35,139 nt of DNA, taken from a virus. The stretch is taken from IMG/VR virus record IMGVR_UViG_3300046007_000143, positions 1 to 35,139 of that record; one strand, 5' to 3'. The position numbers were made by a program, and so were the translations under genes. Shown here in pieces: positions 2,032-23,900 of this stretch (its first letter is position 1; every line of letters begins with the position of its first letter). Under the pieces are notes generated by a model. The model was given only the letters and a program-made list of their open reading frames with translations. It was not told the DNA's origin and did not search any database.

Positions 2032-2745
2032 GTGAACTATACGCAGCTCGTCGCGGCCATTGAGTCGTACACGGAGAACCAGTTCCCAGTCACGTACTTG
2101 GCGGACGGCTCTACCGTGTCCAGCACACAGCAGATTAACCGTCTGATTGAGCAGGCCGAGCAGCGTATATACAACTCGGTGCAGTTCCCGTCGATTCGCA
2201 AGAATGTGACCGGCAGCATCACGGCCAACAACAAGTATTTGGCTTGCCCAAACGACTTTCTGGCGGTGTATTCCATTGCGGTAATTGACTCGCTGGGTGT
2301 GTATGAGTTCTTGCTGAACAAAGATGTGAACTTCATCCGCCAAGCATATCCCCAGCCAACAGATACGGCGCAGCCCAAGTATTACGCATTGTTCGGGTCG
2401 CAGACCAACGACCCAAATGAGTTGACGTTCATCCTTGGCCCCACACCGAACCTAACGTATGGTGTTGAGCTTCACTATTACTACTACCCTGAGTCAATTA
2501 CAACTGTTGCCTCTGGTCAGACATGGCTGGGCGATAACTTTGACTCTGTGCTGCTGTATGGCAGCTTGGTCGAGGCGTACACGTACATGAAGGGTGAAGC
2601 TGACCTTGTTACGCTGTACAACACCAAGTACAACGAAGCCCTTGCTCTGGCTAAACGACTTGGTGATGGACTTGAGCGGTCCGACAGTTATAGAAGCGGG
2701 CAATACCGTGCTCCGCCTTTGCCCCGAAACAATGGGGTCGCGTAA
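2032..2745 (+). CDS. SU10-type phage adaptor protein
   Basis: The 237-residue protein starts at GTG 2032, seven bases after AGGG. It has an N-terminal helical pattern (INRLIEQAEQRIYNSVQFPSIR, about 36-57), a beta-rich middle (ANNKYLACPNDFLAVYSIAV, YEFLLNKDVNFIRQAYP) and a helical C terminus (LLYGSLVEAYTYMKGE, LYNTKYNEALALAKRLGDG). The pattern of a Pro-ended initial helix followed by FLAVYS and Y-rich strands matches proteins annotated as phage adaptors of the SU10 type, which join portal and tail. With the gp4-like gene this would be a second tail-interface protein. The stop overlaps the next start in TAATG. Confidence 0.65.
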   Translation: MNYTQLVAAIESYTENQFPVTYLADGSTVSSTQQINRLIEQAEQRIYNSVQFPSIRKNVTGSITANNKYLACPNDFLAVYSIAVIDSLGVYEFLLNKDVNFIRQAYPQPTDTAQPKYYALFGSQTNDPNELTFILGPTPNLTYGVELHYYYYPESITTVASGQTWLGDNFDSVLLYGSLVEAYTYMKGEADLVTLYNTKYNEALALAKRLGDGLERSDSYRSGQYRAPPLPRNNGVA

Positions 2746-3374
2746 TGGTAAGGCACAATCGCCAAGCAGCCAAAGCCTTAGGACTACCCAAGTGTTACGG
2801 CTCTCCCTGCCATAAACACCCAGAGCTTGAGGGCTTTCGTCGAGTGTCCGGCGCATGTGTTGCCTGTGCCAAGCAAAATCTGCAAAACAGTCGAGCGGCA
2901 AATTTAGAACGTACAAAAGTGCAACAGGATAAGGACCGCATCAAGCTGTTGCAAAACCCAGTTTATGTTGCTAAGAAACGCATTAGTGATACTGCCTACC
3001 GAGCCGCAAACAAGGCGCAATGCCGTGCAGTTATCGAGGCATGGAGCGCACGCAACCCCGAAAAGGTAAAAGCGTACGCAAAGAAGACCAAAGCGTTTAA
3101 CTCTGGTCGTGTGCTTGCACACACTGTAAAACGCCGCTTGGCAAAAATAAAGCGCACCCCCGTGTGGCTAACATCAGATGACCACTGGATGATTGAGCAA
3201 GCATACGAGTTGGCCGCAGTCCGTACCAAAATGTTTGGTTTTGCTTGGCACGTTGACCATATCGTCCCGTTGCAAGGTAAACTCGTCTCAGGACTTCACG
3301 CCCCCAATAACTTGCGTGTCATACCCGGCGCTGAGAATATACGGAAGTCCAACCACTTTCAGGTAGCTACATGA
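2745..3374 (+). CDS. free-standing HNH endonuclease
   Basis: The 209-residue protein ends in an HNH module: HVDHIVPLQGK (H169, D171, H172), then SGLHAPNNLRVIP and NIRKSNHF (N198, K201, N203). An N-terminal cysteine set (C17, C22, C38, C41) could bind zinc, and the middle is basic and helical. Such proteins nick or cut double-stranded DNA and in phages often act as homing endonucleases, or sometimes in packaging. Here it overlaps the adaptor by one base and the next gene by four, inside the structural operon, which suggests a mobile insertion. Base composition is lower in GC than its neighbours (about 40% at 2941-3000). Confidence 0.85.
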   Translation: MVRHNRQAAKALGLPKCYGSPCHKHPELEGFRRVSGACVACAKQNLQNSRAANLERTKVQQDKDRIKLLQNPVYVAKKRISDTAYRAANKAQCRAVIEAWSARNPEKVKAYAKKTKAFNSGRVLAHTVKRRLAKIKRTPVWLTSDDHWMIEQAYELAAVRTKMFGFAWHVDHIVPLQGKLVSGLHAPNNLRVIPGAENIRKSNHFQVAT

Positions 3375-3817
3375 CCATCGCACAAACAGCAACGACCAGC
3401 TTTAAAATTGAACTGCTTCAGGCAGTTCATAGCTTTGGCCCCACGTCCCCTGACACGTACAAGATCGCGCTTTACACGGCGCTGTCAACGATTGGTCCCG
3501 GCACTACTGTATATACAACAACGGCTGAAGTTGTCGGTACGGGCTACACGGCTGGGGGTAACACACTTGTAATCTCTACAAGCCCTACGTCTGGCAACAA
3601 CAACCTTGGAGTTCCCACTGCCTTCATCAGCTTTGCCAACTCATCTTGGCCTGCCTCGACATTTACAGCCCGTGGTGCATTGATCTACAACAGCACTGAA
3701 AGCAACAAATCTGTAGCGGTGCTGGATTTCGGCGCGGATAAGACCGTTTCTAACGACACGTTCCAAATCATTTTCCCAACCGCCGATGCCACCAGCGCAA
3801 TCGTGCGAATCAGCTAA
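3371..3817 (+). CDS. conserved phage virion protein, beta-rich
   Basis: This 148-residue protein is Thr/Ser-rich and almost entirely beta-strand-like. It opens SFKIELLQAVHSFGPTSPDTYKIALYT and contains VVGTGYTAGGNTL, a pattern I recognise from a common uncharacterised family in phage tail-gene regions. No catalytic residues or membrane segments are visible. The ATG overlaps the HNH gene stop (ATGA), so translation is probably coupled. A minor tail or head-decoration role is likely from context only. Confidence 0.65.
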   Translation: MTIAQTATTSFKIELLQAVHSFGPTSPDTYKIALYTALSTIGPGTTVYTTTAEVVGTGYTAGGNTLVISTSPTSGNNNLGVPTAFISFANSSWPASTFTARGALIYNSTESNKSVAVLDFGADKTVSNDTFQIIFPTADATSAIVRIS

Positions 3818-4413: not shown

Positions 4414-5139
4414 GTGTTTGGTGATGCAGCTTTTGCTCAAGCTCCTTTCGCCGCACTTGGCGCGAGTGGTATTGCCTATGACGTAGAGGTAGCCGAGACG
4501 GGGACCGTGATATCGGATTCTGCTTTGGCAGCAACGTTTTTTGTAGCTACGAATACCGAAAGTAGCTCTGGTGTAGCCGCAGTTAACACGATCAACAACA
4601 TCTTCAATAGCCTACTTTCTGGGGCGGCATCTACGGCGTCCACTCAGGCGGTACAGGTAGATTTTGCAGGGTTAATAGCAGAGGCGGCTTCCACCCAAGC
4701 AGCCCAGACGGTTATTGCAACGATGTTGGCAAACGCATCTGAGAGCGTTACAGCACTTGCTACACCTACAGCTAACTCGGTAGTTTTTGCAAGTATTTTG
4801 GAAGCAGTTTCAGGGGCAGACGCAAATATTGGAACGAGAACCTTCCTTGTCGGTATAACCGAAGCGGCTTCCGGGGGGAGTGTTGTATCAACCAGCGCGG
4901 TCTTTGTCGGAACAGTAGCGGAAATGGCTTCCGCAGTCTCTGCGCTGACGGTTTTGCGAGAAGCTAACGTATACCCTAACGGAGTTCAGCTTTACGTTTA
5001 CATCGGCGGCGTGCTTGTTTGGGCAACAATCAACGACAGTCAGACGCCAAACTGGCAAAATATAGGCAGTACGCAGACCCCCGGCTGGAGCGTTGTAGTG
5101 GACACGCAGGCTCCCGGCTGGACCATCCTGCCATCGTAA
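4414..5139 (+). CDS. phage structural protein with C-terminal Trp repeats
   Basis: The GTG at 4414 (AAGG at 4403-4406) starts a 241-residue protein opening MFGDAAFAQAPFAALG, a start seen in many phage tail-region proteins. Residues 20-200 are Ala/Ser/Thr/Val-rich, with loosely repeated blocks built around Glu-Ala-Ala/Val-Ser (AEAAST, LEAVSG, TEAASG, AEMASA). The C-terminal 40 residues contain three short Trp repeats (TPNWQNI, TPGWSVV, APGWTIL). These suggest a trimeric beta structure or attachment segment. It precedes the major fibre by nine bases and is probably fibre- or tail-associated. No function is proven. Confidence 0.6.
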   Translation: MFGDAAFAQAPFAALGASGIAYDVEVAETGTVISDSALAATFFVATNTESSSGVAAVNTINNIFNSLLSGAASTASTQAVQVDFAGLIAEAASTQAAQTVIATMLANASESVTALATPTANSVVFASILEAVSGADANIGTRTFLVGITEAASGGSVVSTSAVFVGTVAEMASAVSALTVLREANVYPNGVQLYVYIGGVLVWATINDSQTPNWQNIGSTQTPGWSVVVDTQAPGWTILPS

Positions 5140-5148
5140 GGAACAAAA

Positions 5149-8100
5149 ATGGCTTTAGTTGTAAAAGATCGCGTACAAGAAACCACGACTGTAGTCGGCA
5201 CGGGGACAATGACTCTTGACGGTGCAGTCCTTGGCTTCCAAACATTCGCCATCATAGGTAACAGCAACACAACATACTACGCAGTTGCAGACGCCATCAC
5301 AGGGGACTGGGAAGTTGGCATTGGTACGTACACTTTGTCTGGGACTACGCTGTCTCGTACAACGGTATTGGAGTCCAGCAACGCTGGGGCGCTGGTTAAC
5401 TTTGCCGCAGGCAGCAAGAACGTATTCTGTACGTACCCAGCAGAGCGTTCGGTGTACTTGGACTCAGCAGGTTCTTACCCTGTACAGAGCACATTCAACG
5501 CTATTACAGCCGCATCCATTGCACTGACTACTGGAACCATTACCACAGCACCAGCCGTTAGCGATGACATAGCAAATAAATTCTATGTGGACTCTATTGC
5601 GGCGCTGGGTATTGTCTACCATGAGCCTGTTTTTGTAGAGTCTCCAGTTGCTGCGGGTAATCTGAATGCCACGTACAACCAGCCGGGCGGCGCAGGAGAC
5701 GGAGTTGGGGCCACGCTGACCAACGCAGGAACGCAAGTTGCGTTGACTATTGACGGGGTGTTGATGACTACGGGTAAGCGGGTGCTGATTCACAACCAGA
5801 CCAGCGCATTCCAGAACGGCGTTTACACGGTTACGACTGTCGGCACTGTCTCAACTAACTGGGTTTTGACTCGGGCAACGGACGCAGACACTTACGCGGT
5901 TAATAGCCCTGACTCATTGGGTCAGGGGGATGCGTTCTATGTCCAAGCAGGCGATACGGGCGCTAGTAACCTGTATGCTGTAAACACTGTTGGGACTATC
6001 ACGTTTGGCACGACTGCCATTACGTTCGCGCTTATTAGCGCGGCTTTCCCATACCTTGCGGGTACGGGTCTGAACCTGAGTCCAGCCACTACGTTCAACA
6101 TCTCCAATGTTGGCACAGCAGGCACGTATGGCTCCTCGTCCAACGTCCCTGTATTCGTCACCAACGCGCAGGGTCAGGTAACGAGCGTCACGAACACGGG
6201 CATCGCCATCACATCTGCGGCAGTCTCTGGGCTTGCAGCATCAGCTACAACAGACACAACCAACGCAGCCAACATAACCACTGGCACACTTCCAGCAGGT
6301 CGTATTGCAGGCACGTATAGCAACCTCACAGGTACGGGCGCACTGGCAGCGGGTTCGTTGGCAACAGGGTTCACGGCAGTCTCCGCCCCACTGGGCGGCA
6401 CAGGCTTAAGTTCCTACACCATCGGCGACCTGATTTACGCAGACACATCAACCTCCTTTGCCAAACTGGCTGACGTAGCTGTAGGTAATGCCTTGATTTC
6501 TGGCGGTGTCGGCTCGGCCCCAAGCTGGGGCAAGATTGGCGCAGCTACTCACATTGACGGTACGCTGCCCGTACTCAATGGCGGCACAAGTCTGACGAGT
6601 CTGACGGCTAATAATGTCATCTTGGGCAACGGCACAGGCGCACCGCTGTTTGTATCTCCGGCTACATCGGGTAATGTGCTTACTGCTAACGGCACAACTT
6701 GGATATCGGCACCAGCAGGTGGTGGTGGGGGCCTGACGTACGTCTACAAAACAGCCAACTACACCGCCGCAAGCAACGAAGGCGTGCTCTGTGACACCTT
6801 GGCTGGCGCTTTTACGGTAACGCTGCCCGCTACACCCGCTGTAGGTGTTCAAGTAATAGTTGCGGATGCTGGTGGTGCTTGGGGTACGAATAACCTCACT
6901 GTGGACCGCAATGGCTCGCTTATCGCTGGCCTAGCCGAAAATCTGGTCTGTGACATTGCAAGCGTAAGTGTCCAGCTTGTTTACGATGGCACGAGTTGGG
7001 AAGTCTACGCGCAGATTGGCGTTAACGGTGGCACACTGGTAACGCTCAATGATATTCAGACACTGACGAATAAAGACCTGACTTCGGCGACCAACACTTT
7101 CCCGACGAGCTTGGCTACTCTTGTCGGCGCACAGACATTAACAAACAAGACTATTGCCTTTGCAAATAACACCTTGACTGGTGTGCAAGCCGAACTGGTC
7201 TCCGGCAGTAACATTAAGACGATAAACGGCACGACCCTGCTCGGCGCAGGCGATTTAGTTGTGGCGTCAGGTATCCTCACCATCAACAATAAAGTTGCCG
7301 CCTATACCGTAGTTGCTGGCGATCTGGGTAAGGTTATCAACTGCACCAGCGGCACGTTCACGGTATCGCTGACGGCTGCGGCCACGCTTGGGGCTGGGTT
7401 TAATGTTACGATTTGGAATACTAGTGCAACCTCAACTGATGTAATTACTATTGACGCATTTGCGTCGGAAACAATTGACGGTTTGCAAGCGGTAATTCTT
7501 CGCCGTGGCGAAGGTATGGAGATTGTTTCTGACGGCTCAAACTGGCAGACGGGTAACAAAAAGGTAATGCGGGCATACGCGGAAAATATGCTTAGTACTG
7601 CCTTTAGACCAACAGCTTCTGGAAACGGGGCACTAGCTATAAGCTCAGGCGGACTTACATCCATCGCCTCTAATTCTGGCGCTATAAATATTGGCGGAGG
7701 TACTTCGTCTGGAACAAATTCACTTGGCATTTTAGGAAGCCCCTCCGGTACCAATAGCACGGCTATTGGACTTAACAACGGTTCTCAGTATGCCGTCGCT
7801 ACCGGCTCCGGCGCAGTGTCTCTTGGCGGCTCTTACGCATCTGGTACGGATACGTTTGCTGCTGTTATTGGAACCAGCTCAAGCTCTTACGGAACTTCGA
7901 ACTCACTCGCTATTGCAATGGGCTATATTGCAAAGGCTGCATATGCTAGCGTTGCCATTGGGGCAAGAGCAGTAGCCTCCGTATCTAACTCGATATCTAT
8001 TTGTAGTAGTTATTCAAGTTTTGGAAATGTGTCTTCTGGATTTAATTCAATTACTTTAGGGGATGGCAACGCTGCAGCCGGTACAAGCTCTGTTGCATGG

Positions 8101-8583
8101 GGGTTCGGGGCAAATGCCAGATATATTAATGGAAAACAGGTATGGGCTGGCGGAAGTTTTAATTCTACCAATGCTGAAGGAAGTTCGCAGACGGGGCAAA
8201 TAGTTTTGCGCGGGGCTACAACAACCGCGATTGCGGCGGTTATGTCTTCTGATACTTCAGCAGCTTCTACCATCAACCAAGTTATTCTCCCCAACGACAG
8301 CACCTTTATTTTTAGGGGCCAACTTGTTGCTCGCAATACGGGCAGTGATACAGATAGCATGGTTTGGGAGTTTAAAGGTGGTATTCGTAGAGGAACTTCC
8401 GCTGGCACAACAACTTTAATTGGAACGCCAAGTATCGACCTTATTGCATCTGATGGGTCGGCATGGACGGTTGCACTAACCGCAGACACTACTAACGGCG
8501 GACTGGCAGTTACGGTTACTGGCGAAGCTGCAAAAACCATTCGCTGGGTTGCAACCGTCCGGACAACAGAAGTTACTGGATAA
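5149..8583 (+). CDS. large tail fibre with YadA-head-like repeats
   Basis: This 1,144-residue protein shows fibre architecture. The N-terminal part (about 1-110) has a typical virion-anchor look (MALVVKDRVQETTTVVGTGTM, then FAAGSKNVFCTYPAERSV). Long Gly/Thr/Ser/Asn-rich repeats follow, including GGTGLSSYTIGDLIYA, LTANNVILGNG and several TLTNKT segments. Residues about 825-1015 carry short repeats with S-x-AIG/AIAMG-x-x-A patterns like left-handed beta-roll heads of YadA-type trimeric adhesins. A compact C-terminal beta domain of about 120 residues follows and probably binds the receptor or folds the trimer. AAGGA precedes the ATG. The region from about 7560 is more AT-rich than the N-terminal half, suggesting separate acquisition. 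Confidence 0.85.
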   Translation: MALVVKDRVQETTTVVGTGTMTLDGAVLGFQTFAIIGNSNTTYYAVADAITGDWEVGIGTYTLSGTTLSRTTVLESSNAGALVNFAAGSKNVFCTYPAERSVYLDSAGSYPVQSTFNAITAASIALTTGTITTAPAVSDDIANKFYVDSIAALGIVYHEPVFVESPVAAGNLNATYNQPGGAGDGVGATLTNAGTQVALTIDGVLMTTGKRVLIHNQTSAFQNGVYTVTTVGTVSTNWVLTRATDADTYAVNSPDSLGQGDAFYVQAGDTGASNLYAVNTVGTITFGTTAITFALISAAFPYLAGTGLNLSPATTFNISNVGTAGTYGSSSNVPVFVTNAQGQVTSVTNTGIAITSAAVSGLAASATTDTTNAANITTGTLPAGRIAGTYSNLTGTGALAAGSLATGFTAVSAPLGGTGLSSYTIGDLIYADTSTSFAKLADVAVGNALISGGVGSAPSWGKIGAATHIDGTLPVLNGGTSLTSLTANNVILGNGTGAPLFVSPATSGNVLTANGTTWISAPAGGGGGLTYVYKTANYTAASNEGVLCDTLAGAFTVTLPATPAVGVQVIVADAGGAWGTNNLTVDRNGSLIAGLAENLVCDIASVSVQLVYDGTSWEVYAQIGVNGGTLVTLNDIQTLTNKDLTSATNTFPTSLATLVGAQTLTNKTIAFANNTLTGVQAELVSGSNIKTINGTTLLGAGDLVVASGILTINNKVAAYTVVAGDLGKVINCTSGTFTVSLTAAATLGAGFNVTIWNTSATSTDVITIDAFASETIDGLQAVILRRGEGMEIVSDGSNWQTGNKKVMRAYAENMLSTAFRPTASGNGALAISSGGLTSIASNSGAINIGGGTSSGTNSLGILGSPSGTNSTAIGLNNGSQYAVATGSGAVSLGGSYASGTDTFAAVIGTSSSSYGTSNSLAIAMGYIAKAAYASVAIGARAVASVSNSISICSSYSSFGNVSSGFNSITLGDGNAAAGTSSVAWGFGANARYINGKQVWAGGSFNSTNAEGSSQTGQIVLRGATTTAIAAVMSSDTSAASTINQVILPNDSTFIFRGQLVARNTGSDTDSMVWEFKGGIRRGTSAGTTTLIGTPSIDLIASDGSAWTVALTADTTNGGLAVTVTGEAAKTIRWVATVRTTEVTG

Positions 8584-8597
8584 TTAAAGGAAAAATC

Positions 8598-8897
8598 ATG
8601 GCAATTCAAATCGACCTCCAGCAATCAAACTTTGGCGTCCCATTTGCGGGCGCGTACTTCCGCATTGTCACCGCATCAATTAGCCGCCAACGTCAGGAAA
8701 CCCCCCGCCACAGCGTGATGATTGACATAGTGGGGTATGCCACCCAGCCAACCAACGAGGACACCAAGGACGTAGATTTTCGCCGCTACCACGTTGCCGC
8801 CTCTGAGGTGTACGCGCAAGCAGGTGATAACTTCTTGGCCCAGTGTTACGCATGGGTGATGGCACAGCCTGATATGGCTGGCGCAACAGGAGTGTGA
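8598..8897 (+). CDS. small phage protein between fibre genes
   Basis: This 99-residue protein opens MAIQIDLQQSNFGVPFAGAYF. It has an N-terminal beta pattern with basic residues (SISRQRQETPRHSVMIDIVGYA) and a C-terminal region rich in aromatic and Ala residues (YHVAASEVYAQAGDNFLAQCYAWVM). I have seen this type beside phage fibre genes but know no function. AAAGGA gives a strong ribosome site. It lies between two fibre genes with a one-base gap downstream, so a small fibre-linked structural or assembly role is likely by context. Confidence 0.6.
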   Translation: MAIQIDLQQSNFGVPFAGAYFRIVTASISRQRQETPRHSVMIDIVGYATQPTNEDTKDVDFRRYHVAASEVYAQAGDNFLAQCYAWVMAQPDMAGATGV

Positions 8898-8898
8898 A

Positions 8899-9942
8899 AT
8901 GGCAGTACTTTCAAACATCATCACGCCGTCAAACGTCTTGACGGCTACCAACACCGCTACGCTGACAAACAAGACCATCAGCGGTGCAAGCAATACGCTG
9001 TCCAACATATCTGTAGCCAGTGGCGGCACCGGGGTTGCATCGCTGACAGCTAACAACGTCATCTTGGGCAACGGTACGGCTGCGGTTCAATTCGTGGCCC
9101 CCGGAACAGCGGGCAATGTTTTAACCTCTGACGGCACGACATGGAGCAGTTCTTCCGGCGCTGGAAGCCCGACAGGACAGGCTTTTTATGGTTTTGGTGC
9201 TGGCGCATATTCATGGACGGTCCCTGCGGGTGTAACTAGTGTTTGCGTGGTTTGTATTGGCGCTGGTGGAGGTAGTCAGGGCTCAACATGGTCGAGCGGT
9301 GGCGGTGGAGGCGGTGGACTGGCATACAAAAACAATATCGTAGTTGTTCCCGGACAAGTCTGGACGGTAAACGTCGGACTCGGTGGCGATGTTGGCCGTG
9401 GCATTCAAAACGGTGGAAGCAGTTCTTTTGTAAGCCCCACCTTCGTGCAAGAGTGCGTAGCAAACGGCGGCGGATCCACTAGTGGTGGTAGCGGTGGCAC
9501 TGCCCTTGGCTATGATGGCGGTGGAAACGGTGGAGGCGGAAACGCCAACTATGGCGGCGGCGGAGCAGGCGGCTACTCCGGAAACGGCGGCAGTGGTAAT
9601 GCCTCCGGTTCGGGGGGAGGCGCAGCGGGCGGTATTACTTACAGCTCCACTTACGGATCAGCCGGTGGCGGGGGTGTGGCACCTTTTGGGCAAGGTACTT
9701 CAGGGAGTCTTAACTATGGGGGTGCCGGAGGTTCTGGCGGAGAAACAGCTTCAGCGGGACAAAACCCGTATACCTCCTTTGGTAATGTTACTCGCCCCGG
9801 CGGTCGTTATGGTGGCGGTGGCGGTGGCAGTGGTACTAGCGACCCCGTAGGCCGGGGTACTCACCGAGGCGCTGATGGCTGTGTTCGTATTATTTGGGGC
9901 ACTGGACGGTCCTTCCCCTCAACTGGTACAGGAGATATGTAA
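8899..9942 (+). CDS. glycine-rich tail fibre / adhesin
   Basis: The 347-residue protein starts with a short linker (TNTATLTNKTISGASNTL) and a LTANNVILGNG...GNVLTSDGTTW module shared with the large fibre. From residue about 118 to 336 it is extremely glycine-rich, beginning WTVPAGVTSVCVVCIGAGGG and ending GADGCVRIIWG. Proteins with this frame are annotated as glycine-rich domain fibre proteins. Phage adhesins such as S16 gp38 fold comparable Gly-rich repeats into polyglycine-II helix sandwiches that contact the host receptor. The next gene is a tail-assembly chaperone-like protein, consistent with a fibre tip. AGGAG is the ribosome site. Confidence 0.8.
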   Translation: MAVLSNIITPSNVLTATNTATLTNKTISGASNTLSNISVASGGTGVASLTANNVILGNGTAAVQFVAPGTAGNVLTSDGTTWSSSSGAGSPTGQAFYGFGAGAYSWTVPAGVTSVCVVCIGAGGGSQGSTWSSGGGGGGGLAYKNNIVVVPGQVWTVNVGLGGDVGRGIQNGGSSSFVSPTFVQECVANGGGSTSGGSGGTALGYDGGGNGGGGNANYGGGGAGGYSGNGGSGNASGSGGGAAGGITYSSTYGSAGGGGVAPFGQGTSGSLNYGGAGGSGGETASAGQNPYTSFGNVTRPGGRYGGGGGGSGTSDPVGRGTHRGADGCVRIIWGTGRSFPSTGTGDM

Positions 9943-10308
9943 ATGCACCACGTATTATTCAACTATGTCGTGGACGGGGTAGTGATTGAAGGACCCATAT
10001 CCTATGCAACCGTTTGTGAACGCACGGGGCTAACAGACACGCCGGGCTTTGCAGAGCTTGGTTACCATGAGCACATGCCTGTTCCAGAATTCATACCTCC
10101 TACCAGCGAACAAATAGCTATGGCTGTGCGGAATATTCGCAATCACCTTCTACAACAGTCCGATTGGACACAGTTTGTCGATTCCCCCCTTGCCAGTGAA
10201 GAAAAAGCACTGTGGGCCGCATACCGTCAGCAACTTCGTGATATGCCTGCAACCAGCGCTCAAGTGGCGACTCTTGAAGAGATTACTTGGCCTGTTGCAC
10301 CTGCTTGA
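9943..10308 (+). CDS. phage tail assembly chaperone-like protein
   Basis: The 121-residue protein carries in its second half IRNHLLQQSDWTQFVDSPL followed by EKALWAAYRQQLRDMP and a final ITWP segment. This RN-x-LL-x-x-SDWTQ / WAAYRQxLRD pattern is the signature of the Phage_tail_APC-type and tail fibre assembly proteins that assist fibre folding. The N-terminal half (about 1-60) is a small beta-rich domain. It starts directly after the stop of the glycine-rich fibre, with AGGAG inside the fibre's last codons, so the two are likely co-translated and work together. Confidence 0.75.
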   Translation: MHHVLFNYVVDGVVIEGPISYATVCERTGLTDTPGFAELGYHEHMPVPEFIPPTSEQIAMAVRNIRNHLLQQSDWTQFVDSPLASEEKALWAAYRQQLRDMPATSAQVATLEEITWPVAPA

Positions 10309-10345
10309 GTAAATCTGCCAAAATACCCTGAACTGAAGGACTTAC

Positions 10346-11413
10346 ATGTCAAGCACCTACTCCCCCGATTTACGCATTGAACTCATTGGCCCCGGCGATC
10401 AAGCGGGCACATGGGGAACCACGACCAACACCAACCTCGGCACTCTGATTGAAGATGCTATCGCGGGTTACGCTACGGTGTCGGTTACTTCGGCGGACCA
10501 AGCATTCACTGCACTGGACGGGGCCGCTGACCAAGCACGAAACGCAGTCATCGCCCTGACCACCACTACCACGGCAAACTTTGCCGTGTACACGCCACCC
10601 GCGTCTAAACAGTACATCATCTACAACACCACCGCCTACACGGCCACGATCTACAACTCCACAGTGATTGGCAATACAACGGCTGCGGGCTTGGGAGTTG
10701 CAGTACCGGCGGGGTCAAAGCTGGCAGTGTTCAGTAACGGGACTAATTTCCGTTCTGTCGATGCTCCCGGTTTTGTTGGCGTGCTTCCAGTGGCCAACGG
10801 AGGTACAGGACTTAGCACCACTCCGAGCAACGGTACGTTGCTAATTGGCAACGGGTCAGGCTTCTCCGCCGCTACCCTGACGGCAGGGGCCAACGTGACA
10901 ATTACCAATGGCGCTGGTTCTATTACCATTGCGACCACTTCCGCCAGCGCTCCCATTCCTTCGGGCACGGTGATGTTGTTTGTCCAGTCTTCGGCTCCTA
11001 CGGGGTGGACTAAAAGTGTTTCCCACGACAACAAAGCCCTGCGGGTGGTGAACGGCAGTGTCTCTTCCGGGGGCTCGGTTTCGTTTTCAACGGCTTTTTC
11101 AAACCAGTCGGTTAGCGGCTCTGTTGGCTCAACAACACTCAGTACTTCGCAGATGCCATTCCACAACCACAGTGCAAGTGTCAGTGATCCTAGTCACGTA
11201 CATCAAAACGGGTTTGATGCGTTTGGAGTAAATGGGTATGCGGGGGCATTTGGCGGAAACGGCATAATTACTAATACCGCAGCCGCTGTTACAGGTATTT
11301 CTGTAACCGTTGGTTACGAAGGCAGCAGCGGCTCGCACAACCACTCGTTTTCTGGAACCTCAATTAACTTGGCGGTGCAGTATGTTGACGTGATTATCGC
11401 TACGGCTAACTAA
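10346..11413 (+). CDS. tail fibre with collar-like C-terminal domain
   Basis: This 355-residue fibre opens with a common podophage fibre start (STYSPDLRIELIGPGDQAGTW, about 3-23). It has a beta-rich shaft and a VLPVANGGTGLSTTPSNGTL linker at about 145-165. From about 203 a tail-collar-like domain begins (IPSGTVMLFVQSSAPTGWT) with a C-terminal His cluster: HNH near 272-274, HVH near 284-286 and HNH near 333-335. Paired HxH motifs bind iron in T4 gp12 and lambda-type fibre tips, so a metal-stabilised trimer tip is likely. AAGGA is the ribosome site. This is a third, distinct fibre tip in the cluster. Confidence 0.8.
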   Translation: MSSTYSPDLRIELIGPGDQAGTWGTTTNTNLGTLIEDAIAGYATVSVTSADQAFTALDGAADQARNAVIALTTTTTANFAVYTPPASKQYIIYNTTAYTATIYNSTVIGNTTAAGLGVAVPAGSKLAVFSNGTNFRSVDAPGFVGVLPVANGGTGLSTTPSNGTLLIGNGSGFSAATLTAGANVTITNGAGSITIATTSASAPIPSGTVMLFVQSSAPTGWTKSVSHDNKALRVVNGSVSSGGSVSFSTAFSNQSVSGSVGSTTLSTSQMPFHNHSASVSDPSHVHQNGFDAFGVNGYAGAFGGNGIITNTAAAVTGISVTVGYEGSSGSHNHSFSGTSINLAVQYVDVIIATAN

Positions 11414-11424
11414 AAGGATCGAAT

Positions 11425-11679
11425 ATGCGTGTAACTATTATTTACCCAGACCGGGCCGTCACCAAAGACGGGCTGACATACAGTAATTTAGCCTTTACGC
11501 TTCCCAACAACATCCACGCCGTGCAGTGGTTTGAAACGGAAGGCGAAGTGGAAATCTGCGATGCGCAAGGCCGGATGGTGGAAAACAAAACGATAACAGA
11601 CATAAGCCCGTTTCAATCAGCGCTCGATGCTTGGCAGCTTCGTCACGATACCCCCGCTCCTGCGCCCACACCCGTATGA
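11425..11679 (+). CDS. small hypothetical phage protein after fibre
   Basis: This 84-residue protein has strands MRVTIIYPDRAVTKDGLTY and NNIHAVQWFETEGEVEICD and a Pro/Ala-rich end (PAPAPTPV). I recognise the type from phage fibre/lysis junctions but not a function. AAGG precedes the ATG, and the TGA overlaps the next start in ATGA. It may be a small fibre-associated or assembly protein. Confidence 0.6.
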   Translation: MRVTIIYPDRAVTKDGLTYSNLAFTLPNNIHAVQWFETEGEVEICDAQGRMVENKTITDISPFQSALDAWQLRHDTPAPAPTPV

Positions 11680-11987
11680 AACTAGAAAAGGGCAATTTTT
11701 GTCCCCTCATTAAAAAAGACTGCGTAGGACTTCAGTGCGCTTGGTTTGTTCAGGTCCGTGGGCACAATCCTAATACGGGGCAAGAAGTTGACGAATGGGC
11801 CTGCTCGATTGCGTGGATGCCCATCTTGATGATCGAGAACAGCCAGCAACAACGCCAAACCGGGGCTGCGGTTGAAACTTTCAGGAACGAGATGGTCAAA
11901 GCCAACGACACCAATCTGCGTGTGTTAGCCCATACTGCAAACATGATTACGTCGAACGCGCCGCCACCTACCAAGGCGCTTGAGTAG
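11676..11987 (+). CDS. small Cys-containing phage protein
   Basis: Reading starts at ATG 11676, overlapping the previous TGA (ATGA). The frame is open upstream to 11631, but that extension would lie inside the preceding gene. The 103-residue protein has four cysteines (C9, C15, C21, C43) in its first half (FCPLIKKDCVGLQCAWF, EWACSIAWMPILMI), then a polar helical second half. A zinc- or disulfide-stabilised fold is possible. I recognise similar proteins near phage lysis genes but know no function. Confidence 0.6.
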   Translation: MKLEKGNFCPLIKKDCVGLQCAWFVQVRGHNPNTGQEVDEWACSIAWMPILMIENSQQQRQTGAAVETFRNEMVKANDTNLRVLAHTANMITSNAPPPTKALE

Positions 11988-11998
11988 AACCCAGCTTT

Positions 11999-12487
11999 AT
12001 GATCGACCCCTTCACAGCCCTAGCGGCAATACAAACGGCTGTGAAGCTGGTGAAGACGGCTGCCCAAACCGTCAAAGATGTGGAGTCGCTCGGCCCTGTA
12101 CTGGGTAAGTTTTTCAGCGCCAAATCAGACGCCATCAAGGTTGTCCAGCAGTCCAAGACCAGTGGATTCAAGGGCTCTGCGATGGGTAAAGCCATCGAGC
12201 TTGAGCTTGCCATCGAGTCAGCCAGAGCGTTTGAGGAAGAGATCAAGATGCTCTTCTTCCAGAGCAACAAGATGGACGTGTGGGCCAAGATTCTGGCCCG
12301 CGCTGCAAGTATCGACAAAGAAGCAGCACATGAGGCCAGACGCCAGCGCGAGGCGGCTGCAAGGCACAAGAAAGAGATGGATGAGGTTATCACCCTTGTC
12401 CTGATGTTTGTGGTTCTGGCGCTGGTCTGCGGCGGTGTCGGCTGGATCATCTACAAAGCTGTGCAAGAGTGCGGCGGTCGGTGCTGA
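11999..12487 (+). CDS. single-span membrane protein of the lysis region
   Basis: The 162-residue protein has an amphipathic, helical, charged region (about 1-128, including AHEARRQREAAARHKKEMDEV) followed by one strong membrane segment at about 130-152 (ITLVLMFVVLALVCGG). It ends in a short Cys-containing tail (QECGGRC). It lies three genes upstream of the endolysin, so a role as an auxiliary holin, antiholin or membrane anchor is possible but unproven. No strong ribosome site precedes the ATG. The TGA at 12485-12487 lies just before the next gene's start. Confidence 0.65.
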   Translation: MIDPFTALAAIQTAVKLVKTAAQTVKDVESLGPVLGKFFSAKSDAIKVVQQSKTSGFKGSAMGKAIELELAIESARAFEEEIKMLFFQSNKMDVWAKILARAASIDKEAAHEARRQREAAARHKKEMDEVITLVLMFVVLALVCGGVGWIIYKAVQECGGRC

Positions 12488-12489
12488 TT

Positions 12490-12969
12490 GTGAGTAATGA
12501 AAATATGTTTTCTAACTTTGACCTGACTAAAGCCATTGGCGCAGTTGCTGCCAGTATTGCCGCGCTTGGCGGCGGTTACACCTTGGCCGACAAAATTGGG
12601 TGGTTTGACAGGGCCATTATTGAGTGGACACCAGAGCATTTCAAGATTGTTGCAGAGGCTGGACAGCCCATCAACGTAACGGTTGCCCGTATTAAAAAGC
12701 GTGATGACTGCTCAGTGGAGGGCTTTACCCCAAGCATCAGAGACGCAGCAGGTATGCTGCATGAAGCAACAACCACGGCGAGCAAGTTCAGCGGCCCAGC
12801 CGGGCCAGAGATTGACACGTTCACCTACCAGTTGACGATGGTGCGAAAAGAAAAGATTGCACCCGGTAAAGCCACCTTGCTGGCGACCATCAAATACAAA
12901 TGTCCAGAGGGCGAGCGTATCGTTCAGTACCCTCGCCATGCAAATCTAAGTTTTGACTTGAAAGGCTAA
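12490..12969 (+). CDS. membrane-anchored protein, lysis region
   Basis: Starting at GTG 12490 gives 159 residues; ATG at 12505 (MFSNFDLTKAIGAVAAS) is an equally possible start, and in-frame GTGs exist at 12469 and 12481. A hydrophobic segment at about 15-33 (AIGAVAASIAALGGGYTLA) is followed by a beta-rich domain with only two cysteines (C74 and C138), which could pair if the domain is periplasmic. It lies between a membrane protein and the holin. A role in host-envelope disruption is inferred. No spanin-like lipobox or proline-rich segment is visible, so spanin identity is not supported. Confidence 0.6.
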   Translation: MSNENMFSNFDLTKAIGAVAASIAALGGGYTLADKIGWFDRAIIEWTPEHFKIVAEAGQPINVTVARIKKRDDCSVEGFTPSIRDAAGMLHEATTTASKFSGPAGPEIDTFTYQLTMVRKEKIAPGKATLLATIKYKCPEGERIVQYPRHANLSFDLKG

Positions 12970-13903: not shown

Positions 13904-15862
13904 GTGCCACTACAAAAACTCCAGTTCCGACCCGGTGTAAACAGGGAATCGACCACGCTTACCAACGAAGGCGGATGGTTTGAGAGCGACAAGGTGCGTT
14001 TTCGTTCGGGTTCGGCTGAAAAAATTGGCGGTTGGGTTTCAGATGTTGGGGTATCTAACGCTGTGCTACAACCCCCAATAGGCTCGTTCTGGGGTGTCTG
14101 CCGTTCATTGTGGAATTGGATTACGCTGTCCAGCTACAACTTGCTGGGCCTCGGAACTAACCTTAAATACTATATCCAAAACGGCACCGGCGGTTTTTTC
14201 TACGACATCACGCCAATTCGCCAAACCACCACAGCGGGGGATGTAACCTTCGCAGCCACGACGGGCTCCACAACCCTGACAATCACCGATGCCGCGCACG
14301 GAGCGCAAGCTGGGGATTTTGTGACGTACAGCGGCGCGGTGAGCTTGGGTGGGGTCATCACAGCCACCGTGCTCAATAGAGAGTATCAAGTAGTGGCCGT
14401 CACCAGCAATAACGTCTACACAATTACTTCTGCGGTTGCAGCAAACGCTTCGGACATAGGTAACGGGGGCTCGTCTGTGGTTGGCGCGTATCAAATTACA
14501 ACGGGCTCGGACATCTACACCGTCAGTGTGGGCTGGGGTGCCGGTGGTTGGAGCGGAATTACAACGGGATTTACAAGCACTGGATGGGGTTCTCCTGCTC
14601 CGTCAGGTGTGGGCCTTGGCGTGCAGCTTCGTCTTTGGAGCCAGTCTAATTACGGTCAGAACCTTATCTTCAATCCCCGTGGCGGTGCGCTGTACTACTG
14701 GGCAGTGAACGCCAACCCCAACATATTTGACCGTGGTGGGATTCTCTCCTCCACAAGCTCGGGCGTTTTCCAAACAGATGTGGATTGCCCGTCGATATGT
14801 AACTTCACAATGGTGTCGGACGCCTCCCGCTTTGTGCTTTCGTTTGGCGTAAATGACTACGGTTCGGTGATTCAAAACCCATTGTTAGTGCGCTGGTCAA
14901 ACCAAGAAGACTACACAACGTGGACCCCTGCAATTACCAATCAGGCGGGTAGCTACCAACTTAGCCACGGCTCGTCCATCATTACGGCTTTGCAAGCCCG
15001 ACAAGAAATTTTGGTCTGGACGGACTCCGCGTTGTACTCGATGCAGTACCTTGGCCCCCCGTACGTCTGGGGCTTTCAAATCCTTGCGGACAATTTGTCG
15101 GTTGTTGGACCCAATGCGGCGGTGACAGCCAACAACATTACATACTGGATGGGTGTTGATAAGTTTTACATGTACTCTGGTCGCGTTGAAACGCTCCCTT
15201 GTACCCTGCGTTCGTTTGTTTACAACGACATCAACATGTCGCAAGCGTTCCAGTTCTTTGCTGGAACCAACGAGGGCTTTAATGAAGTCTGGTGGTATTA
15301 CTGCTCGGCCAACTCTACTGTCATTGACAGGTACGTTGTGTACAACTACCTTGAGCGTATCTGGTACTACGGCACGCTAAACCGCACAGCTTGGCTGGAC
15401 AGTGCCTTGCGTGTAGAGCCTATGGCGACAACGTATAACGCCCAGCTTTTGTACCACGAGACTGGTGTAGATGACGGCACAACCAACCCGCCTTCGCCTA
15501 TTACTGCGTACGTGCAGTCTTCTGACTTTGACATTGGGGACGGCCACAACTTTGGCTTTGTTTGGCGCATCATCCCAGACGTGACCTTTGATGGCTCCTC
15601 GGTAAATGCCCCCGCGCTGGACTTCACGGTTCGGCCACGGCAATTCCCCGGCTCCAACTACGGCAACTCAAACAACCCAACAGTCGTTAGCAATCAGTCT
15701 TACGCGGGACAGCGTACGTACAACGTGCAGCAGTTCACTGAACAGGTCTATGTCCGGGTCCGGGGTCGCCAGATGGCGTTTAAAGTTAGCTCCGACACGC
15801 TGGGCACGGCATGGCAATTAGGCGTCCCCCGCATTGAAGTGCGTCCGGACGGCAGGAAGTAA
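13904..15862 (+). CDS. P22 gp10-like tail hub / packaged-DNA stabilisation protein
   Basis: The GTG at 13904, five bases after AAGGAG, starts a 652-residue beta-rich protein. It opens LQKLQFRPGVNRESTTLTNEGGWFESDKVRFRSG with a KIGGWV segment, and this start (RPGVxRExT...EGGWxxxDKVRFRxG) is shared with phage stabilisation proteins of the P22 gp10 type. P22 gp10 forms part of the tail hub that plugs the DNA channel. Repeated WSNQEDYTTWTPAITNQAG and ALQARQEILVWTDSALYSM blocks in the middle resemble beta-propeller blades. It is longer than P22 gp10 (472 aa). A gp4-like partner lies at 486. Confidence 0.75.
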   Translation: MPLQKLQFRPGVNRESTTLTNEGGWFESDKVRFRSGSAEKIGGWVSDVGVSNAVLQPPIGSFWGVCRSLWNWITLSSYNLLGLGTNLKYYIQNGTGGFFYDITPIRQTTTAGDVTFAATTGSTTLTITDAAHGAQAGDFVTYSGAVSLGGVITATVLNREYQVVAVTSNNVYTITSAVAANASDIGNGGSSVVGAYQITTGSDIYTVSVGWGAGGWSGITTGFTSTGWGSPAPSGVGLGVQLRLWSQSNYGQNLIFNPRGGALYYWAVNANPNIFDRGGILSSTSSGVFQTDVDCPSICNFTMVSDASRFVLSFGVNDYGSVIQNPLLVRWSNQEDYTTWTPAITNQAGSYQLSHGSSIITALQARQEILVWTDSALYSMQYLGPPYVWGFQILADNLSVVGPNAAVTANNITYWMGVDKFYMYSGRVETLPCTLRSFVYNDINMSQAFQFFAGTNEGFNEVWWYYCSANSTVIDRYVVYNYLERIWYYGTLNRTAWLDSALRVEPMATTYNAQLLYHETGVDDGTTNPPSPITAYVQSSDFDIGDGHNFGFVWRIIPDVTFDGSSVNAPALDFTVRPRQFPGSNYGNSNNPTVVSNQSYAGQRTYNVQQFTEQVYVRVRGRQMAFKVSSDTLGTAWQLGVPRIEVRPDGRK

Positions 15863-20987: not shown

Positions 20988-23900
20988 ATGGCAAAAGCAC
21001 TCCCCCTTCCAGACGGCACAACTGTAGCTATTCGTGAGGGGGAAACCCCGGCCCAGACATGGGAGCGTGCGCAACGCATGTATCCCGAAGCGTTTGGAAA
21101 CGTAGAAGAAAAAGCCAAACCAACACAGGACACCACCGGATTTAAAGCCGCTGCTTCCGCTGGCGCTACTCGTTTGGGCGGTGAGTTTGAACTACTCAAA
21201 GGCAAGCTCGGCGTAAAGAGCGAAACCGAAGCGCAAAAAGAATACGAAGCCGCGCAAAAACGCGCACAAGAGCGCTTTACACCCACTGAAAAAGGCTGGA
21301 CGGAAGCGCCGTTCCAAAAGTTCAAAGAAACCCTTGGCGGCTCCGTTCCGTATATGGTAGCGCCTGCTGCCGCGGGTCTGGCCGCATTGGCTGCACCTGT
21401 AGCCGCTCCCGTAGCTGCCGGTCTTGGGTTGCTGGGCGCGGGTGCGGTATCTACCGGCCAGTTCACCGGCTCCAATCTTGCCGCGCAAATGGAAACAGGC
21501 AAGACGCTGGAGGAAGCCAGCCTCGGCAAGGCGGTCGGCGCAGCGATTCCACAGGCGTTGATTGATACGGCAGCTATGGCGCTCTTGCCCGGTGTGGGCA
21601 AGCTCTTCGGCTCTGTAGGCTCCAAGCTAACCGCAGAACAAGCCAAAGCAATCGCCTCACAGACACTGGCCCGCACCGTTGCGGATTACACAGCCAAGAC
21701 CGGCATGGCCATGGGGCGCGAAGGTGTTACGGAAGTTGCACAACAGGTTCTTGAGCGTTTGCAGGCAGGTTTGGAAATTACCGACCCCGAAGCCCGCAAA
21801 GAGTACATTGACAGCTTCATTGGCGGCGCTGTCTTGGGTGGCGCAATTGCCCCTGTTGGCCGTGCATTTGAACGCGGTGGTGCCAAAAGTCAGGCCGCTG
21901 CTGAAGACCGCAAAACAAAACTTGCTGCAAGCGCAGAAGAGCAGCGCGTTGCCTCTGAAGCCGCTGCCAAAGAGGAAGCGTTCAGAAATTCCCCTGACTA
22001 CGCGCTTAAAGTTGCAGAAGACTACGCCGCTGCCGAAAAAGCTAAAGCCGACTTACTGGCCCAAAAACGCACGATTGTTGAAGGGTCGCCTACTGAGACT
22101 GCGGACAAAGCGTTTAACACGATTATTACCAAACAGCTTCAAGCGCAAGCGCCGGAGCTTAAAGCGCTCGGTGACGAATATGTCCGCCTTGAGCCAACCA
22201 TCAAGGATGCTGCCGAGCAAAAGCGTATTGCGGCCCTGACGCCTGAAGAGTATTCGCTGGAGCAGATGAAGCAGGTCTCTGTACCCGAAGGCGTCTCGAC
22301 CACGACGGGCGAGCAAGAAAAAGCCGCGCCCCCGGAAGACGCATACGTGGCAGACCGGATTGCGCTGGCCAAAGACCAGACAAACGACACCGCCGATGTC
22401 GGTGACTATGTTGACTACTTGATGGCCAACCAGCGCATGGCGCAGAGTATCGTAGAGAATCAGACAGCGCTGCCCGGCCTCAATCGTGAGGAACAGAACG
22501 CTGTTCGCGGCGGTTTGAAACTGCAACTGCAAGAGGTTGCTCGGCAACGCGCTGCCGCAGCTCAAGCCGGTACTGCCGCATCTCAAGCTCGTGTTGGCAC
22601 CGTAGAGGAAGAAGAACAAGCCGCCATCGAAGAACAACGCCGTGCGGACGAAGCTGAAGCTACCCGCATGGGAACGGAACGCGCTGACGCAGAACGCCAA
22701 GTTCGTATCGCTCCTGAAGTTGAAGGTATTCAGCGTCTGGGCAAAGCGCCCGAAGGCACATGGAGTTCTGCTAACGCGGACGCTATTTTCCGCAGCATGT
22801 ACCAAAAGCAGGCGGACGAGAAGCAAGTTGATAAGCTTCTGTCAACGCTACCCATGCGCTCTATCAGCACCCCCGGTCAAATCTATTCCGGTATGGGGTT
22901 TGAGGCAGCAAGCCGCCGTGACTTGCTTACCCGCATGGCCGTTGCCAAAGCGCACGCTGGCGTGGAAGACGTGACGCAGCTTCGGCAAGAACTAGCCGCG
23001 CTCGACTCTCGCCCCGCGCAAAATACCGATATTGCGGAACGCCTCCCCGGTGAGGGCGTGCTTCCCGAAGCAGAAAAGAAAACCATTGCGGCTGAGAAAC
23101 ATGCTGACTGGCAGAGCCAGACCCTGCGCGAGTTCATTCGGTTCCTCCAAGACCGCAAGCAAGGCAAAGTGCGCGGCACGCTGCGGGCTAACCGCGAAGA
23201 ACGTTTGGCCAAGGCGTCTGTTGAATTCAAAGAGGCGTTTGCTAAAAGCCACCTTGAAGAGATTGGGGCGCGACTGGATGCGTTTGGCCTCCCACCACTG
23301 ACTGCGGTTGAGAAGAAGATTGCCGAAGGCCGCGTCATGCGAAACCTGAACGAGCTGGAACAACGCTGGGGCGAGGCTCCGGCCAAGGCACCTGCGGGAC
23401 AGAAAGCGTTTGCTGCGCCTGTGCAAGCTGTGGAAGTTCTGCAAGAGCAGATTCGCAGCGGTATGTTCAAAACGATCAACGATGCTGCTGAGCGAATCAA
23501 CTTGTCACGGCGTGGAGACAAGGCCGGAAAGACTCGCACGGCTGAAGGCGGCGCACGCATCGCTACGCCTGACGAACTCAAACTTCGCGCCGAGTCCACC
23601 GTTCCAAAAGACGACAAGCGTATTGCTACCGAGTTGGCAACGCAGTTGCGGGATACGCTGGATCAGCGAACTTATGCTACGCCAGAACAGCCATCACCCG
23701 CAGGCAAAGGGGGTTCTAATCGCGCAGACATGGCGCTTACTTTTGGCGCTCAAGAGCGCGGGATGCGTGCGGATATTGCCAGTCGCGCAGAGTCTCTAGA
23801 CGAAGACACCAAAGACTTTGTGCGCCTTGCAGCCGATACGTTAGACCAGATCGAGGACAAAGCGCTTATCACACGCCTCAAAGAAGGTTTGCAAGACGTG

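Follow-up and report, generated by a model that had tools for sequence, protein, structure and literature searches.

We have analysed a cluster of tail-fibre genes in a linear virus record of 35,139 bases (IMG/VR record IMGVR_UViG_3300046007_000143), which in its whole length is called the window here. Seven genes, labelled A to G, lie on one strand within positions 5149 to 11987 (Table 1). By the open reading frame (ORF) list and the sequence, their frames are closely packed, and G overlaps the stop codon of F as ATGA. Genes A, C and E encode fibres with different tips, and smaller genes stand behind each of them. We consider it likely that the region is the host-recognition cassette of a tailed phage, in which three rooted fibres carry exchangeable tips and helper genes specific to the tip type lie downstream.

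Table 1. Features of the fibre cluster and the evidence used to assign them (aa, amino acids)
Feature	Position	Strand	Evidence
Fibre A, 1144 aa	5149..8583	+	ORF list, domain map, root in relatives, YadA scans
Exchangeable tip module of fibre A (neck, YadA-type head, ACt)	7306..8580	+	Domain map, relatives, YadA scans
B, 99 aa, partner of the YadA/ACt tip, no named family	8598..8897	+	
Fibre C, 347 aa	8899..9942	+	Pfam Gly_rich_2, CN root in relatives
D, 121 aa, tail-fibre assembly chaperone (Phage_tail_APC)	9943..10308	+	Pfam, PDB
Fibre E, 355 aa	10346..11413	+	ORF list, domain map, tip alignment, PDB profile, root in relatives
HxH motif 1, E residues 273-275	11162..11170	+	Invariant in 44 aligned tips
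HxH motif 2, E residues 284-286, variable part of tip	11195..11203	+	Motif scan
HxH motif 3, E residues 331-333	11336..11344	+	Invariant in 44 aligned tips
F, 84 aa, small partner of the HxH tip, possibly Tfa-like	11425..11679	+	Position behind tips, fusions in relatives
G, 103 aa, invariant C9, C16, C21, C43	11676..11987	+	Alignment, locus surveys

Related loci (numbered with an L) were collected from the best 80 matches of each search, of 147 for B, 474 for E, 361 for G and at least 565 for the tip profile, so the counts given below describe close relatives. Contigs recur under different identifiers, and 11 to 18 of these were dropped as duplicates or copies of the window in the main locus surveys. 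The alignments hold chosen non-redundant members: 44 of 66 in alignment A1, 44 of 86 in A3 (tips) and 36 of 59 in A4, with 25 of 25 in A2.

Three rooted fibres and their tips

The original prediction, made for positions 5149 to 11413, was of three fibre genes with different tips, and three long frames (A, C and E) bear this out. The cluster is also more than a chance arrangement, as the starts of its fibre genes, here called roots, recur in an ordered way in relatives. These are the first ~110 residues of A (AN), ~40 of C (CN) and ~145 of E (EN). The order is AN then EN in 42 loci, AN, CN and EN in seven (the window and its copy L002 being two of these) and AN, CN, CN and EN in one. The roots presumably fix the three fibres to the tail.

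Fibre A consists of a root (residues 1-110), spacer domains, a shaft module (~465-525), a YadA-type head (~830-1015) and the domain ACt (1010-1144). That it is YadA-head-like, as predicted, is confirmed through its relatives: Pfam YadA_head is found in 33 of the 36 aligned homologous tips, and a profile of these 36 matches solved YadA-type heads (7o23 of BpaC, 3e-13; 1p9h, 1e-10; 3ntn of UspA1, 3e-7). The window's own A tip has no Pfam match. The 36 members were also scanned for the C-terminal membrane anchor of YadA-type trimeric autotransporters, and no Pfam anchor was found at E ≤ 0.01. Because of this result we set the A tip apart from the autotransporter class; by its profile matches it is to be classed as a YadA-like head on a phage fibre and not as a member of the YadA-type trimeric autotransporters. 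In L002 and L003 the match runs over about 4,005 bases, against 3,432 in the window. An insert was considered and rejected: a single match of 10-11 kb shows 99.9-100% DNA identity, and the extra length therefore probably stems from joining with matches to the next gene.

Fibre C has a short root (residues 1-42), a shaft module and a tip (residues 96-347) that is 35% glycine. The tip matches Pfam Gly_rich_2 (PF21722, E = 1.2e-14); glycine-rich domains are the trait of fibre tips such as Pam3 gp24 and S16 gp38. By sequence C has no significant match in the PDB, where phmmer returned a weak lectin match alone (E = 0.65). The next gene, D, is assigned to Phage_tail_APC by Pfam (E = 1.4e-18, 67 bits against a curated cut-off of 26.6) and matches PDB 2kz6 (9e-10). 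The glycine-rich tip with a chaperone-like neighbour had been foreseen correctly.

Fibre E has a root (residues 1-145), a shaft and an HxH tip (residues 204-355). It had been described as a collar-type fibre with HxH motifs. The motifs are there, at residues 273, 284 and 331, but the collar label is not supported, since E matches no Pfam family at E ≤ 1 and hence no Pfam collar family. Across 44 aligned tips, the HxH pairs at alignment positions 69/71 and 127/129 never vary, and the part between them is variable. A profile of these 44 tips matches two solved tail fibres with their HxH aligned (9qgo, 4.1e-6; 9nxk, 1.4e-4); T4 gp37 itself is not among the PDB matches of this profile, and E as a single sequence has no PDB match at E ≤ 1. 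Outside the 44-tip alignment, one tip of the same family is without HxH (L357) and two have one HxH (L330 and L291). In the latter two (L330, 2696-3961; L291, 2637-3965) the first HxH region of the tip is replaced by arginine-rich repeats and the last HxH alone is left.

A shaft module is common to A (residues 465-525) and C (residues 28-89), with 50 and 52 bits. This could mean that A, C and E make up one composite or branched fibre, a single recognition organelle in which C and E dock on A through the module. We regard this as quite improbable, given that A, C and E each have their own recurring N-terminal root and that the module occurs with just 30 of 159 tip genes. With this count the module is also a weak candidate for a swap junction, and it was discarded as such.

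Helper type tracks tip type, not root

HxH tips are found on different roots in relatives: on the A root (L011, L012, L174, L177, L191, L226 and others), on the E root (the window and L014), on both A and E roots (L168, L169, L175 and L202), and in a frame of their own directly behind the E root (L015, L170 and L180). The genes downstream go with the tip. On the A root, G/F is downstream of 14 of 18 genes with an HxH tip vs 0 of 40 with other tips (Fisher p = 3e-10), and on the E root of 16 of 17 vs 5 of 52 (Fisher p = 2e-10). Likewise B is downstream of 7 of 12 A-rooted genes with an ACt tip vs 0 of 46 others (Fisher p = 3e-6). Identical root-and-tip pairs were counted once and 17 edge cases excluded. 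Part of the misses come from tandem pairs of tip genes with one common helper, where the first gene counts as a miss. Helper type, B or F/G, tracks tip type and not root.

The pairing of B with the tip can also be followed from B itself. In a pooled set, which includes the window's own population (L002, L003 and L082), 73 of 86 B genes start within 150 nucleotides (nt) of an ACt gene. Four exceptions lie at contig edges, and in four (L026, L027, L144 and L157) the frames overlap and the pairing is hidden merely by the chosen start codon. There is no ACt match upstream of B in L098, L116, L138 and L158, and in L117 a gap of 513 nt. Exactly one B is present in all eight loci with two ACt genes, most of them fetched through B and all of them stretches rather than genomes. 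B has no named family: tblastn against 50,697 phage records gave nothing, and neither did Pfam, PHROGs and NCBIfam. Its AlphaFold (AF2) model is fair (pLDDT 78, pTM 0.70) and has no PDB match at E ≤ 0.001 (best VIA Z, 3.7); two uncharacterised viral models match at that threshold.

In three relatives (L175, L323 and L237) a region resembling F is joined to a domain of assembly-chaperone type. These fusions suggest that F is probably a chaperone for the HxH tip.

The original prediction had given a chaperone to the glycine-rich tip. D fits this part, but not as the sole helper of the cluster, as B, F and G are also found and with better statistics. The mechanism that we propose is as follows. 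Fibre tips are trimers that often need helpers, and the helpers downstream would be assigned by tip type: B for YadA/ACt, F and G for HxH, and, with less support, D for the tip rich in glycine. They would be assembly factors, either chaperones or transient caps, with F as the likely chaperone of the HxH tip and G as an additional protein. One helper for several clients suggests that they act in trans, as a chaperone would.

Several observations weigh against this picture. Of 51 loci fetched through ACt, B adjoins by hidden Markov model (HMM) in only six, all with a YadA head, and 40 are without B by HMM, six of these 40 having a YadA head. The other five of the 51 are two at edges and three with no ACt match by HMM. 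As a universal partner of ACt, B is thereby ruled out. Among 14 genes that match the glycine-rich HMM, of which 12 have room downstream, D follows only four, that of the window being one of them, so that its pairing with this tip is thin. F has no family match in Pfam, PHROGs or NCBIfam. Finally, six loci other than the window and its copy have all three roots, and in four of them the frame with the C root is short: 64 residues in L009 and L013, 121 in L056 and 123 in L069. The middle fibre may therefore be split or a remnant in these four; in L007 and L018 the frame is long (350-503 residues).

The short frames bear on the original prediction taken in full, namely that the virion displays A, C and E together and that they bind different receptors. 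Its case consists of three open genes, recurring roots and tips of distinct families, and it is because of the short C frames that we place it slightly below an even chance. The record of phage S-SCSM1, for which 45 virion proteins by mass spectrometry are reported (PMC9602691), points the same way: the fibre SSCSM1_244 is flagged as a virion protein, but SSCSM1_245, of the HxH-tip family, and SSCSM1_246, a G protein, are not. Since the tip SSCSM1_245 is itself unmarked, this record says little about G. If the virion shows more than one tip it could use more than one receptor, and such use is plausible.

When 14 ACt loci without B were inspected, two of them (L379 and L386) showed a short frame that is B-like by eye.

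Gene G and the HxH tip

G is a small protein with a striking set of cysteines. An alignment of 44 members shows no exception at C9, C16, C21 and C43. None of 123 non-redundant G proteins has fewer than four cysteines when the matched stretch is counted together with the 14 residues preceding it, and the cysteines persist where their spacing changes. A variant with three cysteines and a histidine was rejected, as stop-to-stop reading gave four cysteines in L350, L353, L354, L359, L360 and L362. No Pfam or NCBIfam family matches G at E ≤ 1, and the profile has no match in the PDB. As a single query G hits one artificial-looking repeat protein in the PDB at 0.004, with no stretch significant alone, and against PHROGs it has marginal scores only (0.013 and 0.17). 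The AF2 model is poor (pLDDT 69, pTM 0.30); a long helix, predicted with low confidence at residues 44-93, carries many of the most conserved polar residues. G occurs among isolated marine phages, P-SSM2 being one, as well as in contigs of viruses and of bacterial assemblies.

The pairing of G with the HxH tip holds in both directions. Among 77 loci fetched through G (the window's three copies excluded; many of the loci are near-identical), G is behind the tip family in 76 and behind an HxH-rich gene in one. In 74 of them the tip-family gene has at least two HxH in its last 220 residues and in two it has fewer; in the remaining locus the gene upstream has 11 HxH and was missed by the tip HMM. 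At least two HxH occur in 9 of 219 other same-strand frames of at least 200 residues in these loci. In the other direction, 76 of 78 loci fetched with the tip profile have G within 1,500 nt (69 within 60 nt and seven more within 1,500 nt), the contigs being partly those of the G-fetched set; L459 and L486 have no G nearby.

The picture is similar in other sources. In contigs of bacterial assemblies, which may be prophages or binned phages, a gene with at least two HxH lies within 900 nt upstream of G in 29 of 31. The exceptions are L357 (tip family, no HxH) and L360, and in L353 the HxH gene has no tip HMM match. When all sets are pooled and made non-redundant (21 identifiers dropped, 172 G genes reduced to 123 pairs), G is paired with a gene of at least two HxH in 115 of 123; the other eight are L330, L291, L329, L331, L204, L357, L360 and one contig edge. 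Among named phages, 12 records hold G and 11 have a tblastn match to the E tip region, all 11 being among the 12. Some of the 12 are versions of one genome, and five were inspected. G is behind a fibre gene in P-SSM2, CRP-361 and S-SCSM1; in RN05-S it is on the opposite strand at the end of a fibre gene, and in S-SCSM2R it stands apart, with two tips elsewhere in the same genome.

There is also exactly one G in all 36 loci with at least two frames for HxH tips. These are stretches and not genomes, 28 of them were fetched through G and many are near-identical, and the count says that there is no second helper nearby.

What might G do? As G is made in the cytoplasm, its four invariant cysteines suggest a bound metal, and HxH tips may bind iron as in T4 gp37. 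Our reading is that G would be a metal-binding assembly factor, perhaps one that loads iron into the HxH tip. One form of this idea is that G is an iron-loading factor, either a metallochaperone or an iron-sulphur (Fe-S) protein, from which the HxH sites of the trimeric tip obtain their iron in the course of assembly. This would account for the conserved cysteines, for the near-obligate pairing of G with HxH tips in both directions and for one G serving several tips of a locus, and it would agree with the separate Tfa-like chaperone gene behind G in P-SSM2 and CRP-361. However, G is kept beside the L357 tip, which has no HxH, and beside those of L330 and L291, which have one. The poor model of G does not help. 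T4 is not known to have a G. Yet T4 gp37 does bind iron, held by its HxH pairs (PMC11705849). We consider iron loading by G somewhat unlikely, and the broader claim that G is the founding member of a family, as yet without a name, of metal-delivery proteins encoded by phages, which load iron into the HxH tips of receptor-binding fibres, an unlikely one.

The alternative is that G is a structural zinc-type chaperone or a transient cap for the conserved frame of the tip, with a metal of its own that has nothing to do with the HxH iron. We hold this tentatively, as a possible reading. That G stays with the tip frame where HxH is lost (L357) is what it would predict, and the predicted helix, rich in conserved polar residues, would suit such a role. 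Distances between loci are informative here. Those of G barely correlate with those of the tips (r = 0.02-0.22, no p < 0.05, 19-39 loci), so that co-evolution of G with tip alleles, which we had looked for, was not found. They follow instead the E root (r = 0.48), gene H (0.27) and the 13904 gene (0.27). It follows that tips are exchanged over a resident G, as one would expect if G served the conserved frame of the tip in a general way. What counts against the zinc-type chaperone is that G has no sequence match to a solved fold and that its model is too weak for a fold search.

In the cyanophage loci L327, L329 and L330, G is near genes for 2OG-Fe(II) oxygenases, and several such genes are in S-SCSM1 and S-SCSM2R. 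The piuC gene near G in P-SSM2 is, we presume, also a 2OG-Fe(II) oxygenase gene.

Known systems and genomic setting

Phages with several fibres are well known, and to our knowledge the entry of iron into HxH tips has not been worked out. G accompanies the majority of tips in one large HxH family and so gives the iron-loading question a concrete gene that can be tested. If G does deliver iron, phages would own one of the steps by which their tails acquire it. A role of phage tails as carriers of iron in seawater, known as the Trojan Horse idea, has been proposed (discussed in PMC11705849). The rule that the helper follows the tip is of more general use: it is a means to annotate the unnamed small genes beside fibres and to predict the type of fibre.

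Parts of the cassette resemble published systems. In Pam3 (PMC9608196), gp24 and gp25 are a glycine-rich tip followed by a two-domain Tfa chaperone, much like C and D; the Pam3 fibre is described as being of one protein, whereas the window has three fibres. T4 gp37 and the fibre of Alteromonas phage R22Y (PMC11705849) have HxH pairs proposed as iron sites, as in E, but in E there are three HxH, and a four-cysteine protein goes with it; the word 'cysteine' is absent from the main text on R22Y. A fibre and its cognate chaperone form one module common to distantly related phages in Alteromonas phages A5 and V22 (PMC10579305), as here; in those phages there is one fibre type, while the window has three tip types and the helper type tracks the tip across two roots. 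The pelagiphage fibre with a YadA domain (PMC3909814), like YadA-type adhesins, has head repeats near the C-terminal end of the fibre, as does A, which adds the ACt domain and then gene B. As for the Tfa proteins of Mu and lambda, which are named in PMC9608196, D has a related assembly-chaperone domain by Pfam, while B and G match none.

Several elements have thus been published before: modules of fibre and chaperone common to unrelated phages (PMC10579305), YadA heads on phage fibres (PMC3909814) and glycine-rich tips with Tfa chaperones (PMC9608196). In the papers cited here and in the titles and the beginnings of the abstracts of the open-licence literature, no G-like metal helper of phage fibres was recognised. 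As far as our searches show, what is new is the two families without a name, B and G, and the finding that the type of helper goes with the type of tip.

Genes outside the cassette indicate what kind of phage this is. For the gene at 13904-15862, similar genes are found in Phage DSL-LC04, pelagiphage HTVC023P, Roseobacter phages CRP-901 and CRP-902 and many Pseudomonas phages. The gene at 2032-2745 has a match to the SU10 adaptor family. From these likenesses the window is likely to come from a short-tailed phage.

Some further genes of the window deserve mention. The gene at 4414-5139, just upstream of fibre A, has no significant family match. It is found in relatives, some with two or three copies of the domain, where it often directly precedes an A-rooted or E-rooted fibre gene; it is possibly a fibre-attachment part. 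An ORF of 209 aa at 2745-3374, between 2032-2745 and 3371-3817, has paired cysteines and an HNH-like C-terminal stretch by eye. Its two neighbours directly abut in L069 and L056, so it looks like an inserted homing endonuclease. Just past the variable cassette, the stretch at 12469-12969 belongs to no known family but is well conserved, with a DNA identity of 80-82% in six of seven matching relatives and of 71% in the seventh. Finally, 20988-28841 encodes a protein of 2617 aa with an LPD38 domain near its end.

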